From Syntrophaceae bacterium (lineage in GTDB: Bacteria > Desulfobacterota > Syntrophia > Syntrophales > UBA5619), in contig PLLC01000057.1 of the NCBI GenBank assembly GCA_003141195.1, forward strand, positions 1 to 49,671: a DNA stretch of 49,671 nucleotides, given 5' to 3'. A program made the translations under genes and the position numbers. This document shows positions 3,407 to 18,885 of the stretch, in pieces. Within the stretch, counting starts at the first letter, position 1, and the number at the start of each line of letters is the position of its first letter. The notes beneath the pieces are model-generated. The model searched no databases. It was given only the letters and a program-made list of their open reading frames with translations, and was not told where the DNA came from.

Positions 3407-4648
3407 ATGGCAGTTCTGATTCCCTTTAAAGCGTTGAGGCCGCGGAAAGCTGTCGCGGAGGCTGTGGCGGCACTGCCCTATGATGTGATGAATGTCGAAG
3501 AGGCACGGGAGATGGTCCGGGAGAATCCTCTGAGCTTTCTCCATGTGGAGAAATCGGAAGTCGACGTGCCGGCCTATCCCGGCGGCGGGGGTGAGCAGGT
3601 CTACGAGATGGCCCGTCAGAATCTGGAGGCACTGATCCGGGACGGCATCCTCGTTCAGGATGATAAACCCTGCCTCTATCTATACAGGCTCCGAATGGGC
3701 GCCCGCGAGCAGACCGGTGTAGTAGCGGGACTCCGGATCAAGGACTATGAGGCGGGGCGGATCAAGAAGCATGAGTTGACCCGGGCCGACAAGGAGGCTG
3801 AGCGGACCCGTCATATCGATACGGTCCATGCCCATACGGGGGCGATCTTCATGACCTACCGGAGAAGTGAGACCATCGGCCGGATCATCGAAGGGATCAA
3901 GCGTGAATTGCCCGAGGTTGATTTCGTTTCCGCCGACGGAATCGGCCATACGGTTTGGGTGGTACGCCGGGATGAAGAGATCCGGAACTTGGTGGAGGCC
4001 TTTGCGACGCTCCCGGCACTCTATATCGCCGACGGTCATACTCGCTCCGCCGCGGCGGCAGCCGTGGCAAGGCAGCGTCGGGAACGGAACCCGTTCCATT
4101 GCGGCGATGAGTCCTACAATACCTTCCCGGCGGTCCTCTTTCCGGATGACGAGGTCCGCATCATGGATTACAACCGGGCTGTCCGGGATCTGGGCGGCCT
4201 CACGGAAGCGGCCTTCCTGGGGAAGGTCGGCAGGATATTCCAGGTCCGGGAGGGTTTCCCGCAGAAGTCCCCTTCTCACCTCCACGAGTTCGGCATGTAC
4301 CTGCCGGGACGTTGGTATCAGTTAATCCTACCGGAGGGGCATGTCGACACCCGCGATCCCGTGAAGGTCCTCGATGTATCGCTTTTGCAGGAACTTCTTC
4401 TGGGACCGGTGCTCGGTATCGCGGACCCGCGGACAGACAACCGGATCAAGTTTATCGGGGGAATCCGGGGCATGGCGGAACTGGAAAGGCTGGTCGACTC
4501 GAGCGCGTATGCCGTGGCCTTTTCGCTCTGCCCCACAGCCCTCGAACAGCTGATGGCGGTGGCGGAGGCGGGTCAGGTGATGCCTCCCAAATCGACCTGG
4601 TTCGAACCCAAGCTCCGGAGCGGTCTGTTTGTACACCTGCTTGATTGA
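3407..4648 (+). CDS. DUF1015 family protein
   Basis: The 413-residue cytosolic protein matches the DUF1015 family, whose members are about 400 residues and often lie near serine biosynthesis genes. The recognisable opening is VLIPFKALRPRK followed by ALPYDVMNVEEAR, then LYLYRLRMG, KKHELTRADKEAERTRHIDTVHAHTG and YIADGHTRSAAA. Its biochemical role is not established. I chose ATG 3407, preceded by GATGAGGAGAG, over a GTG 36 bases upstream because of the ribosome-binding site and the family's usual N-terminus. It lies 115 bp before the oxidoreductase operon on the same strand; co-transcription is possible but not shown. Confidence 0.85.
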   Translation: MAVLIPFKALRPRKAVAEAVAALPYDVMNVEEAREMVRENPLSFLHVEKSEVDVPAYPGGGGEQVYEMARQNLEALIRDGILVQDDKPCLYLYRLRMGAREQTGVVAGLRIKDYEAGRIKKHELTRADKEAERTRHIDTVHAHTGAIFMTYRRSETIGRIIEGIKRELPEVDFVSADGIGHTVWVVRRDEEIRNLVEAFATLPALYIADGHTRSAAAAAVARQRRERNPFHCGDESYNTFPAVLFPDDEVRIMDYNRAVRDLGGLTEAAFLGKVGRIFQVREGFPQKSPSHLHEFGMYLPGRWYQLILPEGHVDTRDPVKVLDVSLLQELLLGPVLGIADPRTDNRIKFIGGIRGMAELERLVDSSAYAVAFSLCPTALEQLMAVAEAGQVMPPKSTWFEPKLRSGLFVHLLD

Positions 4649-13218: not shown

Positions 13219-13490
13219 GTCCTGGCCATCGGTGGAGCGGCCGTGGTGGCGAAGAAGGTGCAGTTTGTGGGCATCGCCACGGATGGCACCGGCGGTCTCT
13301 ACTATCCTTTGGGGACGCCCTGGCCCAGGTCATTTCCAGCAAGATTCCTGATGTGTCAGCGACTGCCCGGAGCGGCAACGCCTCGGTGGCCAATGTCAAC
13401 CTGGTTGCCCAGGATGAGGTGGAGACGGCCTTCATTCAGAACAACGTGCTGGATTCCGCCTATTTCAGAAAAGATCAGTGGCAGGGGAAT
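13219..13490 (+). pseudogene. Frameshifted fragment of a TAXI-family TRAP solute receptor
   Basis: The sequence encodes VLAIGGAAVVAKKVQFVGIA (late signal peptide and mature start) and then TGGLYYPLG in one frame. It continues after about 13313 in another frame with DALAQVISSKIPDVSATARS and VNLVAQDEVETAFIQNNVLD. Together these match the first quarter of a TAXI (TRAP-associated extracytoplasmic) receptor. A one-base loss in the G-run near 13311-13314 breaks the frame, the 5' end is cut within the signal peptide (TAA just upstream), and similarity ends near 13470-13490 where the attC-like repeat begins. It is non-functional. Confidence 0.75.
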
Positions 13491-13494
13491 GACC

Positions 13495-13553
13495 GCCGTC
13501 CCCGCGAGCAAACTCGTGTGTCCGTCAGTCGCTAATCCGCAGCGCCGTTATGC
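13495..13553 (+). other. Truncated attC-like cassette recombination site (copy 1)
   Basis: This is the first copy of a 55-bp repeat that recurs at 14208-14262 with 49 of 55 positions identical. It ends CAGCGCCGTTATGC, where GTTATGC (13547-13553) resembles an integron core site (GTTRRRY). Internally GCGAG...CTCGT can pair. The expected left half of an attC (complement of GTCGCTAAT) is not found in the adjoining TAXI fragment, so the site is a right half only. Function is inferred from pattern and from copy 2. Confidence 0.55.
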
Positions 13554-13611
13554 ATGATGACCTTATGAACAAAAAGTTACAATTATATTCCAAACATGAT
13601 AAGGTTAAACC

Positions 13612-13893
13612 ATGAAATACACCCAATGCTTTCTATTTGTAAGACAACGCTCTGACAGGAAAGGGATCAAAGAAGAATGGATACTCGAAACCATCAGTAA
13701 CCCTTTAAAAACTGTAAGATGATCCGACGGGCGAATAAAAAAGTGGAAATATATTGAGGAAGCGGGGAAATATCTGAGAGTCATTCTGTTGGAAGACGGG
13801 GAGACAGTCCATAACGCCTTTTCGACAGGAGCTATAAGGAGGAGTAACCATGAAAATCCGCTACTTTGCAGATACGGATACGGCACTCATTGA
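13612..13893 (+). pseudogene. DUF4258-like ORF interrupted by in-frame TGA
   Basis: The frame from ATG 13612 reads MKYTQCFLFVRQRSDRKGI..WILETI, hits TGA at 13720-13722, then continues SDGRIKKWKYIEEAGKYLRV and LLEDGETVHNAF. The two parts together resemble the small DUF4258 proteins often encoded directly upstream of a DUF2283 protein, possibly as a toxin-antitoxin-like pair. The TGA most simply arose from CGA by C-to-T change and truncates the product to 36 residues. The pseudogene's 3' end overlaps the start of the DUF2283 gene. The AT-rich composition differs from the chromosomal genes nearby. Confidence 0.6.
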
Positions 13894-14056
13894 GTTTTCA
13901 AATGAATCCATTCTGGAAACGAAAGAAATATCAGAAAGCCTCTATATCGATCTGGACCGCAAGGGCAATCTTGTAAGTATGACCATTGAGCACGCAAAAG
14001 AAAAGGCCAATATCTCAGAAGTGTCGTATTTGCAAATGGAACAAATCGTGGCATAA
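13850..14056 (+). CDS. DUF2283 family small protein
   Basis: The 68-residue protein (MKIRYFADTDTALIEFSNES, then LDRKGNLVSMTIEHAKEKA) matches the DUF2283 family of short proteins with a YDxxADxxYI-like start. Partners of DUF4258 are often thought to form toxin-antitoxin-type pairs, but function is unproven. The start has a strong AAGGAGGAGTAACC ribosome-binding site. Its TAA stop lies inside GCATAAC, the candidate left core of the attC-like site, a typical arrangement for integron cassette genes. The upstream partner carries a nonsense codon, so this gene may be an orphan. Confidence 0.75.
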   Translation: MKIRYFADTDTALIEFSNESILETKEISESLYIDLDRKGNLVSMTIEHAKEKANISEVSYLQMEQIVA

Positions 14057-14266
14057 CCAAACAATCCAGCGGATGGGCCCAAGACAGGGCCTTCCCCTGA
14101 TTTCCTCGATGGTCGGATGCTTCGCGCCGAGCCATCGGTGCTGCCGATTGCCGTCCGCTTTCTGGCCGGCGCTGCCGCGCTTGGCCATCAAGCGGCAGCA
14201 GCGGACAGCCGTCCCTGCGAGCAAGCTCGCGTGTACGTCAGCCGCTGATCCGCAGCGCCGTTGGGC
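14051..14266 (+). other. attC-like recombination site (copy 2), unusually long
   Basis: GCATAAC (14051-14057) is the exact complement of GTTATGC at the first site, as expected for the two ends of one cassette. CAGCGG (14067-14072) pairs with CCGCTG (14242-14247), and the site ends in GTTGGGC (14260-14266). Inside are nested hairpins: GTCCGCT...AGCGGAC with GCTGCCGC/GCGGCAGC, and CGATGG..CCATCG. A second, closer CAGCGG (14199-14204) also pairs with CCGCTG around CGT/ACG and GCGAG/CTCGC stems. At 216 bp it exceeds usual attC sizes and may be a fusion of two sites. Confidence 0.5.
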
Positions 14267-14284
14267 GGCAGGAATAGGGACAAG

Positions 14285-17200
14285 ATGAGCGACAAAGCGG
14301 TATTCACCAGGTACCTCAAAGAGCTTTTCGCCGTGGCCCTGCAAGGCGACGCGCGGGAGGAAAGCTTCTACCCGACGCTTGCCGAAATGCTGGCGGATAT
14401 AGCCAAGGCAACCGGGCGGGCGCATGTGCGCGTCACCACCCTTCCAAAACCCACCGATGCCGGCAACCCTGATTTTCGTCTGTGGAATGGCACGGACCGC
14501 ATCATCGGCTATGTCGAAGCCAAGAAACCGACGGAAGATCGACTGGACGTTATCGAGGAGTCCGAACAACTCACGCGCTATCGCTCCACGTTCCCCAACC
14601 TCATTCTGACCAACTTCCTTGAGTTCCGGCTGTACCGGAACGGCGAGCGCGTGGAGACGGTCCTTGCCGCCCGGCCCATGGTTCTCAACCGCCTGCGCAC
14701 GATGCCGCCGTTGGAAAAGCCGGACGAACTGCATGCCCTCCTTGACCGATTTCTCGGTTTCTCGCTGCCCAAGGCGTTCACGGCTGAATCTCTCGCCGTC
14801 GAACTGGCCAAACGCACTCGATTCCTGCGGGATGTCGTCGCTCAGCAACTTGAGCAGGAAAAGGACGCGCCGGGCATGCTTGCCGGGTTCTTTGAAGCCT
14901 TCCATACCTACCTCATCGGCACGCTGACACCGGAGGACTTCGCCGACCTCTTCGCCCAGACCATTACCTACGGCCTCTTTGCCGCCCGGACCCGGGCCGG
15001 GGACGGCTTCAGCCGCCGCACGGCCTACGACAACATCCCGCACACGATCGGTGTCCTCCGCCACCTGTTTCGTTTCATCTCGCTCGACGATCTACCCGAG
15101 CAACTCGCCTGGTGCGTGGACGACATCGCCGAAGTCCTGGCCGTGGCCGACGCGCCCGGCATCCTCGACCGCTACTACCACGAAGGCAAGGGAAGCGACC
15201 CCATCGTTCACTTTTACGAGACTTTCCTCGCGCAATACGACCCCGCCGAGCGCGAGCGCCGCGGCGTTTACTACACGCCCGAACCGGTGGTCGGCTACAT
15301 CGTCCGTTCGCTGCACAGCCTACTGAAGACCGAATTCGGCAAACGCGATGGATTGGCTTCCGACGGCGTAACACTTCTCGACCCGGCGGCGGGCACCATG
15401 ACCTTCATCGCCCGCGCCGCGCAGCAGGCCGTCGCCGAGTTCGAGGCCAAGTACGGCAGCGGCGGGCGCGAGGACTTCATCCGGCGGCACGTCCTCAAGA
15501 ACTTCTACGCCTTCGAGTTGATGATGGCCCCCTACGCCGTGGGCCACCTCAAAATGGGCTTTTTCCTCGAAGAACTCGGCCACCGTCTGACGGACGAGGA
15601 GCGTGTCCCCTTCTACCTCACCAACACCCTCGACAACGAGGAGTTGGAACAGAGCAACCTGCCGGGCTTTTCCGCCTTGGCCGAGGAATCCCGCCTCGCC
15701 GGAACCGTCAAGAAGCAAACCCCGATTCTCGTGATCCTCGGCAATCCGCCGTATTCGGGGCATTCGAGCAATCTAAGTGAAAAGATGTGTGAGATCCACA
15801 AAGGTCACAAATATGTCATAGGATGGAATCCAAAGGCGGGCGGTGGCGCAGAGGCCATTGATTGCATAGCCAAGCATGAAATAGGCGGCATTTTGCAGCC
15901 AACGTTCATAGGGCATCTGATAAGGGATTATTTCTTTGTGGACGAAAAGCCTCTGGGCGAGAAGAATCCGAAATGGCTCCAGGACGACTACGTGAAGTTC
16001 CTCCGCTTCGCCCAGTGGAAGATCGAGCAGGCCGGACGCGGGGTTGTCGGCATGATCACCAACCACGGCTACCTCGACAACCCGACGTTCCGGGGCATGC
16101 GCCAGAGCCTGATCCGTACCTTTGACGAGATTTACATCCTCGATCTGCACGGCAACTCGCTCAAGAAAGAGATCTGCCCTGATGGGAGCCCCGACAAGAA
16201 CGTTTTCGACATCCGGCAGGGCGTGGCCATAGCTTTTTTCATCAGGCGCGGCGGCAAAAGGAAGGCCGATGCGGTTGTCCGACATACCGATCTCTGGGGT
16301 TTGAGAGAGTCAAAGTATGGCTGGCTCGATGACCGCGACCTGAAGCAAACCGATTGGCAGGAGTTAAAGCCGACGTCGCCGTTCCATCTGTTCGTACCGC
16401 GCGACAACGCACTGGACGCCGGTTATCGCCGTTTTGTCGGCATCCCCGATTTGTTCCCGGTCAACAGCGTCGGCATCGTGACGGCGCGCGACAGACTGAC
16501 GATTCACTGGTCAAAAGAAGACATCTGGAAAACGGTAACCGTCTTCGCCGGTATGGATGCGGAAGTGGCGCGCCAAGGGTACAATCTCGGCAAAGACGCG
16601 CGAGACTGGAAGGTGTCGTTTGCTCAAAAAGACCTGCTGGATTCCGGCCCCTCGCGAGACAAGATCGCGCCTATTCTCTACCGGCCCTTCGACATCCGCC
16701 ACACCTACTACACCGGCCGATCGCGCGGGTTCATCTGCATGCCCCGTCCCGAGGTTATGCGCCACATGCTGGCGGGGGAGAATCTGGCATTGGTCACCTG
16801 TCGACAACTCGCCCAGGCTGGCTGGTCTCATGCCATGGTGAGTGATCAAATAACCGACGATTCCTTTGTGTCGAACCGCACGCGGGAACGTGGCTACCTG
16901 ATGCCCCTCTACCTCTACCCCACCGCTGACCGCGCGGACCTCTTCGCTCTTCACGAACCGTCGGAACGCTGTCCGAATCTGAACCCCAAAGTGGTCGCGG
17001 CGTTGGCTCAGACATACGGCAAGGAACCCTCGCCCGAGGAGATCTTTCACTACGTTTACGCCGTCCTGTATGCGCCCGCGTATCGTGAGAAATATGCCGA
17101 GTTACTGCGTATGGATTTCCCGCGCGTGCCGTTCACGGCGGACGCGAAGCTGTTCCAGAAACTCGCCGCCTTGGGCGCGCGGCTGACCGCCCTGCATCTG

Positions 17201-17596
17201 CTCAAATCCTCCGCCCTCGACCCGCCCGCCTGCCGGTTCGAGGGCGAGGGCGATAGCCGCATCGGCAAGGGAAGAAAGGCCGGGTTCCGCTACGAGCCGG
17301 GTGAACAGTGTGTGTACATCAACGCAACCCAGTATTTCGCGCCTGTGGCCGAAACCGTGTGGAGTTATCAGGTGGGCGGCTACCAGGTCTGCGAGAAGTG
17401 GCTGAAAGACCGCCAGGAACGCCGTCTTGAGCTGGACGACATCCGCACCTATTGCCGCATCGTCACGGCGCTCGGGCTGACCATCGAGATTCAGGAGAAG
17501 CTCGACGCCCTGTATCCTGGCGTTGAGAAGAGCGTCGTGACCATACCCGGACACATGTCGGAAGTGGAATCAGGAAGCCCAACAAATGTACTATGA
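14285..17596 (+). CDS. Single-chain Type IIG-like restriction-modification enzyme (N6-adenine methylase)
   Basis: The 1103-residue protein fuses three parts. Near residues 60-90, NPDFRLWNG...GYVEAKKP is a PD-(D/E)xK nuclease motif. The N6-adenine methyltransferase core has motif I LLDPAAGTMTF (about residue 365) and motif IV ILGNPPYSG (about 485). A C-terminal third with LYRPFDIRHTYYT, TRERGYLMPLYLYP and GYQVCEKWLKDR fits the specificity/DNA-recognition region of such enzymes. It would both cut and methylate DNA at a specific site. I chose ATG 14285 behind AGGAATAGGGAC. The gene begins 23 bp after a GTTGGGC core and its last codons contain the complementary GCCCAAC, so it looks like a very large integron cassette. 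Confidence 0.85.
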   Translation: MSDKAVFTRYLKELFAVALQGDAREESFYPTLAEMLADIAKATGRAHVRVTTLPKPTDAGNPDFRLWNGTDRIIGYVEAKKPTEDRLDVIEESEQLTRYRSTFPNLILTNFLEFRLYRNGERVETVLAARPMVLNRLRTMPPLEKPDELHALLDRFLGFSLPKAFTAESLAVELAKRTRFLRDVVAQQLEQEKDAPGMLAGFFEAFHTYLIGTLTPEDFADLFAQTITYGLFAARTRAGDGFSRRTAYDNIPHTIGVLRHLFRFISLDDLPEQLAWCVDDIAEVLAVADAPGILDRYYHEGKGSDPIVHFYETFLAQYDPAERERRGVYYTPEPVVGYIVRSLHSLLKTEFGKRDGLASDGVTLLDPAAGTMTFIARAAQQAVAEFEAKYGSGGREDFIRRHVLKNFYAFELMMAPYAVGHLKMGFFLEELGHRLTDEERVPFYLTNTLDNEELEQSNLPGFSALAEESRLAGTVKKQTPILVILGNPPYSGHSSNLSEKMCEIHKGHKYVIGWNPKAGGGAEAIDCIAKHEIGGILQPTFIGHLIRDYFFVDEKPLGEKNPKWLQDDYVKFLRFAQWKIEQAGRGVVGMITNHGYLDNPTFRGMRQSLIRTFDEIYILDLHGNSLKKEICPDGSPDKNVFDIRQGVAIAFFIRRGGKRKADAVVRHTDLWGLRESKYGWLDDRDLKQTDWQELKPTSPFHLFVPRDNALDAGYRRFVGIPDLFPVNSVGIVTARDRLTIHWSKEDIWKTVTVFAGMDAEVARQGYNLGKDARDWKVSFAQKDLLDSGPSRDKIAPILYRPFDIRHTYYTGRSRGFICMPRPEVMRHMLAGENLALVTCRQLAQAGWSHAMVSDQITDDSFVSNRTRERGYLMPLYLYPTADRADLFALHEPSERCPNLNPKVVAALAQTYGKEPSPEEIFHYVYAVLYAPAYREKYAELLRMDFPRVPFTADAKLFQKLAALGARLTALHLLKSSALDPPACRFEGEGDSRIGKGRKAGFRYEPGEQCVYINATQYFAPVAETVWSYQVGGYQVCEKWLKDRQERRLELDDIRTYCRIVTALGLTIEIQEKLDALYPGVEKSVVTIPGHMSEVESGSPTNVL
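17577..17583 (+). other. Candidate left core of a lost attC
   Basis: GCCCAAC fits RYYYAAC and is the exact complement of GTTGGGC at 14260-14266, the start of the unit carrying the restriction-modification gene. It lies within the last six codons of that gene. The rest of an attC is not recognisable downstream: 40 bp later the ribosome-binding site of the HD-GYP gene begins. Confidence 0.45.
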
Positions 17597-17625: not shown

Positions 17626-18885
17626 ATGTATCCGAAAATATCGGTGAATCTCGGAAATCTCGTTCTCTCCCTCTCGGATGCCCTGGATCTGGCGTTTTAT
17701 TCGCTGGCCATGCACCAGCAGCGCACGGCTTTCATCGCCTGGGAGTTGGGAAAAAATGCAAAGTTGCCGGAAAAAAGGATTGAAAACGTTTTCATTGCCG
17801 GCTTGCTTCACGACATCGGAGCATTGTCGATCGAGGAAAAAAGATCTCTTCACGATAACGAAACCGCGGAGGTGGAACCGCACTGCATTCGAGGACAGCA
17901 TCTTTTCAAATCCAACCCGTGGCTTGCGTCATGCGCAGACCTGGTGCGATACCACCACCGGGATTGGGTTACGTATGAAGAGCCGCGAGACGCTCCCGAG
18001 GTATTCGACTCGCAACTTCTCTTTCTCGCGGACTACCTGGAACGTCAGATAGACCGAAAGACATATATCCTGCATCAGAACGAAGCACTCTGTGGCCAGA
18101 TGAAGGAACTCGCGGGCAAGCAGATCGACAGAAAGATCGTCGACCTGTTCCTTGAAGTATCCCAACGGGAAGAATTTTGGCTGGACCTGACGTCTCCCCG
18201 CCTATACTCATTGCTTCTACACAATGGTCCATTTCAGGCAATTGAGATCGACCTCAACAACATCGCGATCTTCGCCAAACTGCTCGGCATGATTGTCGAT
18301 TTCAAATCGCCCTTTACTGCTACTCATTCATCCGGCGTTGCCCAGTGTTCCATGCTCCTTGCCGAGATAGTCGGTATGTCGGAAACCGAGGTGAAGCTGA
18401 TGGAAGTAGCGGGGTTGCTCCACGATCTCGGCAAGCTGGTCGTCCCCAACTCGATCCTTGAAAAACCAGCGGGGCTGACGCATGAGGAGATGGCCGTGAT
18501 GAAACAACATACCTACCACACATTCTCCATCCTCAGCACCATCGGAGGACTTCAGATGATTGCCGAATGGGGCGCTTATCACCACGAGAGGCTGGACGGC
18601 AAGGGGTATCCTTTCAGGCGTAAGGCCCATGAAATGAATATCGGGGCGCGGATTATGGCCGTTTCCGATATATTTACAGCGCTGGCAGAGGATCGCCCGT
18701 ATCGCAAGGGCATGAAGACGGAGAACATAAAAAATATCCTTCAAGAGCAGGCCTCTCATGGCATACAAGACTCCCACATTGTGAAGCTTCTGCTGGAGAA
18801 CATTGAGGAGGTCCGCCAGGTTGTAACTGAAAGGCAAGAGCAGGCCCGGCATTACTATCAGACCGAGGTTGAAAAACCGGAATAA
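17626..18885 (+). CDS. HD/HD-GYP domain protein, probable cyclic di-GMP phosphodiesterase
   Basis: The 419-residue cytosolic protein has two HD regions. The first (about residues 25-130) has IAGLLHDIGALS and RYHHRDW. The second (about 210-400) is a full HD-GYP domain: HSSGVAQ, VAGLLHDLGKLVVPNSILEKP, KQHTYHTF, HHERLDGKGYP and AVSDIFTALAEDRPYRKG. HD-GYP proteins hydrolyse cyclic di-GMP at a metal centre bound by the HD residues and the GYP loop; all those residues are present. No sensory or receiver domain is fused. The ATG follows AAAGGAGGCATC. It lies directly after the cassette-like region and may mark the chromosomal boundary. Confidence 0.87.
   Translation: MYPKISVNLGNLVLSLSDALDLAFYSLAMHQQRTAFIAWELGKNAKLPEKRIENVFIAGLLHDIGALSIEEKRSLHDNETAEVEPHCIRGQHLFKSNPWLASCADLVRYHHRDWVTYEEPRDAPEVFDSQLLFLADYLERQIDRKTYILHQNEALCGQMKELAGKQIDRKIVDLFLEVSQREEFWLDLTSPRLYSLLLHNGPFQAIEIDLNNIAIFAKLLGMIVDFKSPFTATHSSGVAQCSMLLAEIVGMSETEVKLMEVAGLLHDLGKLVVPNSILEKPAGLTHEEMAVMKQHTYHTFSILSTIGGLQMIAEWGAYHHERLDGKGYPFRRKAHEMNIGARIMAVSDIFTALAEDRPYRKGMKTENIKNILQEQASHGIQDSHIVKLLLENIEEVRQVVTERQEQARHYYQTEVEKPE

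Follow-up and report, generated by a model that had tools for sequence, protein, structure and literature searches.

Integrons are platforms with which bacteria collect genes. In integron theory a cassette consists of a gene and its attC site, and the integrase IntI recognises the folded attC by its spacer and extrahelical bases. Cassettes without an open reading frame (ORF), also called non-coding or gene-less, are known in Vibrio and Treponema: they are bounded by crossover points, have many paralogous copies and have been suggested to be selfish or regulatory (PMC1382264, PMC11014356, PMC8876359). Here, we describe a locus on contig PLLC01000057.1 of a Syntrophaceae bacterium (assembly GCA_003141195.1), analysed over the whole stretch of 49,671 nucleotides (hereafter the window), where a 152-bp unit without ORF, called U, lies between two integron crossover points. 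U probably belongs to a widespread type of cassettes that carry no cargo and consist of two adjacent hairpins, which we call mini-cassettes. The region around it is likely to be what is left of a chromosomal array of integron cassettes after the loss of its integrase neighbour.

Mini-cassettes resemble the ORF-less cassettes of Vibrio and Treponema in being non-coding, crossover-bounded and multi-copy. The latter are composed of a non-coding body and a classical attC, whereas in mini-cassettes two hairpins (full length 53-196 bp) make up nearly everything, the core varies and the unpaired spacer is missing. They also recall the IS1111-attC elements and the hairpin-ended miniature inverted-repeat transposable elements (MITEs), which share the specific insertion at integron att sites and the hairpin structure. 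Unlike these, they carry no transposase, are found at attI and solitary G^WT sites as well (the caret marks the crossover), and pair their cores as cassettes do. We found no description of hairpin-only cassettes in the open-licence literature on ORF-less cassettes, IS1111-attC elements and MITEs in integrons.

In the aligned copies from other genomes, the conservation of U runs exactly from G^ATGG to CCG^. Many of these genomes have a whole classical attC on the left (R'' RYYYAAC, spacer, L'', loop, L', spacer, G), and on the right the sequence begins with TT. Therefore, the 216-nt stretch at 14051-14266, taken for a single attC in an initial annotation made from the sequence, splits into an attC of about 58 nt (14051-14108) and the separate unit U, whose parts are the following.

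14109 to 14260, forward strand: U, the ORF-less 152-bp mini-cassette between two crossover points (160 bits with the covariance model R2).
14108 to 14137, forward strand: hairpin 1 of U, where the core GATGG(C)T pairs with R'' AGCCATC (14130-14136) in a consensus fold with compensatory changes.
14137 to 14148, forward strand: L'' box of U, GGTGCTGCCGAT, pairing with 14248-14259, with covariation in relatives (GC to AU, CG to GC).
14248 to 14260, forward strand: L' box of U with the terminal crossover G, ATCCGCAGCGCCG, pairing with L''.

The fold thus has a first hairpin made by the core and R'', and a second one made by L'' and L', with nested hairpins within. Both are backed by compensatory changes (2-29 AU to UA and 7-24 UA to GC; 32-156 GC to AU and 33-155 CG to GC).

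U is one of four sequence families with a single two-hairpin architecture. Their members sit exactly between integron crossover points: after attI, after a classical attC, or at solitary G^WT sites. E, the second family (165 bp), was retrieved in 25 of the 155 genomes of the class Syntrophia, and the 93-96% identity of its copies in different families speaks for mobility. The third (F, core GTTCGTG/CACGAAC) has several copies behind classical attC sites in genome G312 (G, C and L numbers are our handles for genomes, contigs and loci), while the fourth (T, GTTGTCG) occupies solitary sites. In G080, G060, G046, G016 (contig C3) and G110, elements with unrelated sequence and the same architecture separate attI from the first gene cassette, and a family other than U is also at attI in G109. 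With no ORF, crossover boundaries and positions at attI and between cassettes, mini-cassettes can be regarded as ORF-less cassettes.

We then compared the contexts of individual copies. G019 has an intact IntI (353 aa, 476 bits), then attI, and U directly behind attI. The same kind of attI-like flank precedes a 58-bp minimal U and then a gene in G016 (contig C100). In G129, a homologous attI comes first, next a gene cassette whose cores are complementary and whose attC is classical, and then a truncated U. Mini-cassettes stand behind a complete classical attC in G312, G370, G192, G378, G109, G129 and the window. For example, contig C53 of G109 has six mini-cassette copies, some with internal deletions, interspersed with gene cassettes that keep their own attC. 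The gene cassettes read there pair their own start and end cores over 7-9 bp in five of six cases and over 5 bp in the sixth, and some cassette boundaries have no mini-cassette. The adjacency of attI and U, together with these mixed boundaries, implies that U is not part of attC. Mini-cassettes can also be in tandem, since U and E abut in G370 in the orders E-U and U-E (L156 and L162; contigs C76 and C153). Boundaries, recurrence, contexts, covariation and the presence of several copies per array are the properties that sequence comparison documents. At two loci (L149 in G245:C450 and L150 in G274:C35), U has near-identical flanks at a solitary G^AT site, apparently outside arrays. A direct-repeat search for attC arrays near IntI genes was uninformative, because attC sites are too divergent.

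U was retrieved in 19 of the 155 Syntrophia genomes with blastn and in 22 with the model R2, and it is also found in other Desulfobacterota. The repeat shared by the two attC-like sites of the initial annotation recurs with 80-94% identity in further species of the order, including other genera and families. The exact matches are mostly from Syntrophaceae and other deltaproteobacterial metagenome-assembled genomes (MAGs), which fits the deltaproteobacterial chromosome type proposed in the initial annotation; the chromosome is of Syntrophales. Within the genome of the window, further copies of the repeat were limited to matches at chance level, and none was found with R2; such absences are bounded by genome completeness and MAG binning. 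Among plasmids there was one short match at chance level, among phages none, and an exact pattern search of viral contigs gave none. Pattern matches in the genome of the window (L003, contig C3) and in Azohydromonas (L078) were short only.

The junctions follow a simple rule. The crossover G is present at 56 of the 57 distinct left junctions of mini-cassettes. Twelve of the 57 left flanks are attI-like, and 21 pass a simple attC test against 3% of shuffles, a test that is strict and misses, among others, the attC of the window. On the right, G|TT accounts for 36 of 50 junctions and G|AT for nine (45 together). The paired core variants of the mini-cassettes themselves are GTA/TAC (19), GAT/ATC (16), GTT/AAC (13) and GTC/GAC (1). 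IntI can cut the G^A of GAT triplets in secondary-site reactions (PMC10127599), in agreement with the G|AT flanks as well as with the GAT core.

Judged by position, the best-supported reading is that mini-cassettes are likely to be cassettes moved by IntI. We infer that IntI acts as recombinase on a circular or single-strand intermediate, and that the role of the units is selfish. Hairpin 1 pairs the first bases past the left crossover with an internal R''-like box, and hairpin 2 pairs an L''-like box with the L' box ending at the right crossover G. In the circular form, the boxes of the hairpins would merge into one continuous duplex of 15-23 bp. Integron integrases would insert mini-cassettes, as single-strand hairpins, at attI, at attC crossovers and at solitary G^WT sites, and the units may spread in this way as minimal selfish cassettes.

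Mini-cassettes share with canonical attC sites the complementarity of R'' with R' and of L'' with L', present in U and its relatives, the crossover after G and the bottom-strand hairpin. They fail to match them in two tested features, the core and the unpaired spacer. The canonical core GTTRRRY/RYYYAAC is not kept: GAT, GTA, GTC and GTG occur besides GTT, and the core stays paired. In gene cassettes, the duplex over the circle junction has 5-9 bp, ends at G and leaves the usual spacer unpaired, whereas nearly all intact mini-cassettes measured have an uninterrupted duplex of 15-23 bp over the crossover (a comparison made without the F-family copy of G312). In the L stem, the minimal form of E has one unpaired T in L'' and the long forms a mismatch.

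Several points weigh against movement by IntI. Mini-cassettes lack the unpaired central spacer between the R and L boxes, and recombination of the Vibrio cholerae repeat by IntI1 is lowered when the spacer is paired, drastically so if the extrahelical bases are also removed (PMC2727003). Many of their cores differ from GTT, and some copies are not beside a recognisable att site. The pairing of the U of the window has decayed to 7 bp over the junction, and that of the G009a copy to 6 bp. A TIGR02249 search of the genome of the window found no IntI above the family cut-off. Finally, no recombination or movement of mini-cassettes has been observed. The tension between position, which favours a cassette moved by IntI, and the two canonical attC features that fail is the point of interest. 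We tentatively raise the possibility that mini-cassettes are a distinct class of integron parasites: cargo-free two-hairpin units whose arms are paired throughout and whose self-complementary core varies freely, and which might be recombined unlike canonical attC, by a variant substrate mode of IntI or by another enzyme.

A separate enzyme is also what an integron-targeting MITE would call for. Mini-cassettes would then be non-autonomous elements moved by an RNA-guided transposase of the IS1111/IS110 type or a single-strand transposase of the IS200/IS605 type that targets the attC/attI crossover. The hairpin ends, the lack of ORF, the fixed orientation, the absence of a visible target duplication and the arms without canonical spacer all agree with this, and some members of IS1111 are known to target one end of attC (PMC11187229). 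We nevertheless regard it as rather unlikely, since the attI, attC and solitary sites agree only in G^WT and not in the longer target expected of such transposases, no transposase travels with mini-cassettes in the arrays read, and four unrelated sequence families obey one rule.

Alternatively, the same mobile unit might be kept for an effect on expression at position 1, as promoter, attenuator or insulator. The frequent location directly after attI (the 12 attI-like junctions among 57) would be explained, and gene-less Vibrio cassettes do have promoter activity (PMC11014356). However, position 1 is also the landing place of any recent insertion by IntI, and copies shrink to hairpins of 53-59 bp and recur within one array. 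Scans of U revealed neither a sigma-70-like promoter nor a terminator-like site, but such scans are weak and the promoters of gene-less Vibrio cassettes are not predictable in silico (PMC11014356). A regulatory role seems quite improbable. That U is the outer part of one unusually long attC of about 216 nt is hardly tenable and was rejected on the attI-U adjacency and the mixed boundaries of G109, where gene cassettes end in attC with or without a unit behind: although U is flanked by R'' GCATAAC and the following core, and the fold of the 217-nt bottom strand is better than those of shuffles (z -3.5), U comes after a complete classical attC and has a paired core of its own.

Taking U as a cassette of two hairpins, the array in the window would probably read U', a truncated copy of U; cassette A with its classical attC; the complete U; and cassette B, with its right end lost or unknown. 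The features left of U are the following.

13243 to 13484, forward strand: fragment of a TAXI/NMT1-like TRAP solute-receptor gene (from the ORF list, with a weak Pfam NMT1_3 match, E 2e-4), broken off by U'.
13491 to 13547, forward strand: U', a mini-cassette of which the 3' fragment is present, comprising the right half with the L' box up to the crossover G^TTATGC.
13548 to 14108, forward strand: gene cassette A, which begins with TTATGC behind the crossover and ends with the terminal G of its attC; the start core GTTATGC complements the end core GCATAAC.
13612 to 13849, forward strand: DUF4258-like pseudogene, with an in-frame TGA at 13720 in the translation (Pfam DUF4258 at E 0.007, below cut-off).
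13850 to 14056, forward strand: DUF2283 gene of 68 aa (Pfam E 2.6e-14), whose stop codon overlaps the R'' box.
14051 to 14108, forward strand: classical attC of cassette A, about 58 nt, with R'' GCATAAC, L'' CAGCGGATGGGCCC, L' GGGCCTTCCCCTG and terminal G.

The four core strings of the initial annotation are indeed present: GTTATGC at 13547-13553, GCATAAC at 14051-14057, GTTGGGC at 14260-14266 and GCCCAAC at 17577-17583. Because GCATAAC and GCCCAAC are so rare in the 49,671 bases (two and three occurrences), we estimate the chance that such a string lies no more than about 30 nt from the stop codon of the unit it belongs to at about 0.002-0.004 for each. The two sites were rightly seen as related, since a 65-nt probe ending at 14272 matches 13495-13549 with 89% identity over 55 nt. 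Yet the stretch 13495-13553 is not the attC of a gene cassette, as had been proposed, but a truncated U: U' is 88-91% identical to U and to the U of relatives, scores 32.5 bits with R2, and makes up the right half of another copy, joined to the broken TAXI-type receptor gene.

Cassette A, in turn, obeys the complement rule claimed for it (GTTATGC with GCATAAC at 14051). It has the features of an integron gene cassette: complementary cores, an attC with L''/L' arms, an end at the G before the next crossover, and a duplex over the circle junction that ends at G as in canonical cassettes. Its attC has the same position relative to U as the complete attC sites of relatives. The check suggested in the initial annotation, an attC covariance model, was made with ten attC sites from relatives and from the C2 array of the same genome, leaving out the sequence of the window. 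Across 14 related loci, this model retrieved 30 attC sites with E<0.01. In the window, 14050-14113 was the sole match with E<5, but a weak and non-significant one (10.3 bits, E 2.7), partly because the right core of the site now belongs to U. An Rfam scan of the window gave no match. The pair of DUF4258-like and DUF2283 genes looks like toxin-antitoxin cassettes.

The features right of U concern cassette B and its flank.

14261 to 17596, forward strand: cassette B, bounded on the left, with a Type ISP/IIG restriction-modification enzyme starting probably at ATG 14285 (Pfam Type_ISP_C 4.6e-89 and N6_Mtase; PADLOC REase_MTase_IIG 5.5e-259).
17577 to 17583, forward strand: GCCCAAC, exactly complementary to the core at which cassette B starts, with no attC behind.
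17626 to 18885, forward strand: HDOD/HD-GYP domain gene directly behind the restriction-modification gene (Pfam HD_5/HDOD), colinear in G013.

Of this second cassette, only the left start stands. A close copy of the restriction-modification gene in G011 (contig C28) lies behind an attC, beside a decayed intI and attI, and its DNA similarity begins exactly at the equivalent of 14261, which fixes the left crossover independently. The proposed end at 17577 is not proven, because no attC follows 17583 and because G013 (contig C82) keeps the GCCCAAC stretch and continues, without attC, into the same HD-domain gene at 90% identity. A short remnant of the restriction-modification gene precedes the HD gene in G006 (contig C320). 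At the G011 locus (L235, about 3696-3719), a 24-nt hairpin, TTCCCGGCGACTGCGTCGCCGCGA, lies between the attC and the restriction-modification cassette and is possibly a relic of a mini-cassette.

The initial annotation described a cassette cluster without integrase. This holds for the window, where no integron integrase is found (contig C96 has no TIGR02249 match), but not genome-wide, since two decayed intI genes lie elsewhere, each beside attI and cassettes. The one on contig C2 (24086-24628) has an in-frame internal loss of about 168 residues, and attI, a gene cassette and a good attC lie behind it; of the one on C89 (about 59774-60019), only the C-terminal part matches, and attI adjoins it. 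The locus is therefore akin to clusters of attC sites lacking integron integrases (CALIN) in having cassettes with no intI nearby. The CALIN criterion is at least two attC sites, whereas the window has one classical attC, U and U', on a contig without intI in a genome with decayed intI elsewhere. Genes for IntI with internal losses recur in the genus, and the copies in G005 (C251) and G010 (C106) lack another internal part than that on C2. In one IntI subgroup (L024 in G019:C228, L145 on the C2 contig above and L023 in G010:C106), intI, attI and cassettes are co-oriented with attI downstream, while in G080 and G109 intI and cassettes diverge.

If mini-cassettes are what we propose, hairpin-only units at attI, attC and G^WT sites would provide a natural test of the features that IntI really needs, and a selfish layer would be added to integron evolution. 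Tools that call attC sites may miss mini-cassette boundaries or give them the wrong size. The odd long 'attC' sites and the fragmented assemblies in Desulfobacterota would then be explained.

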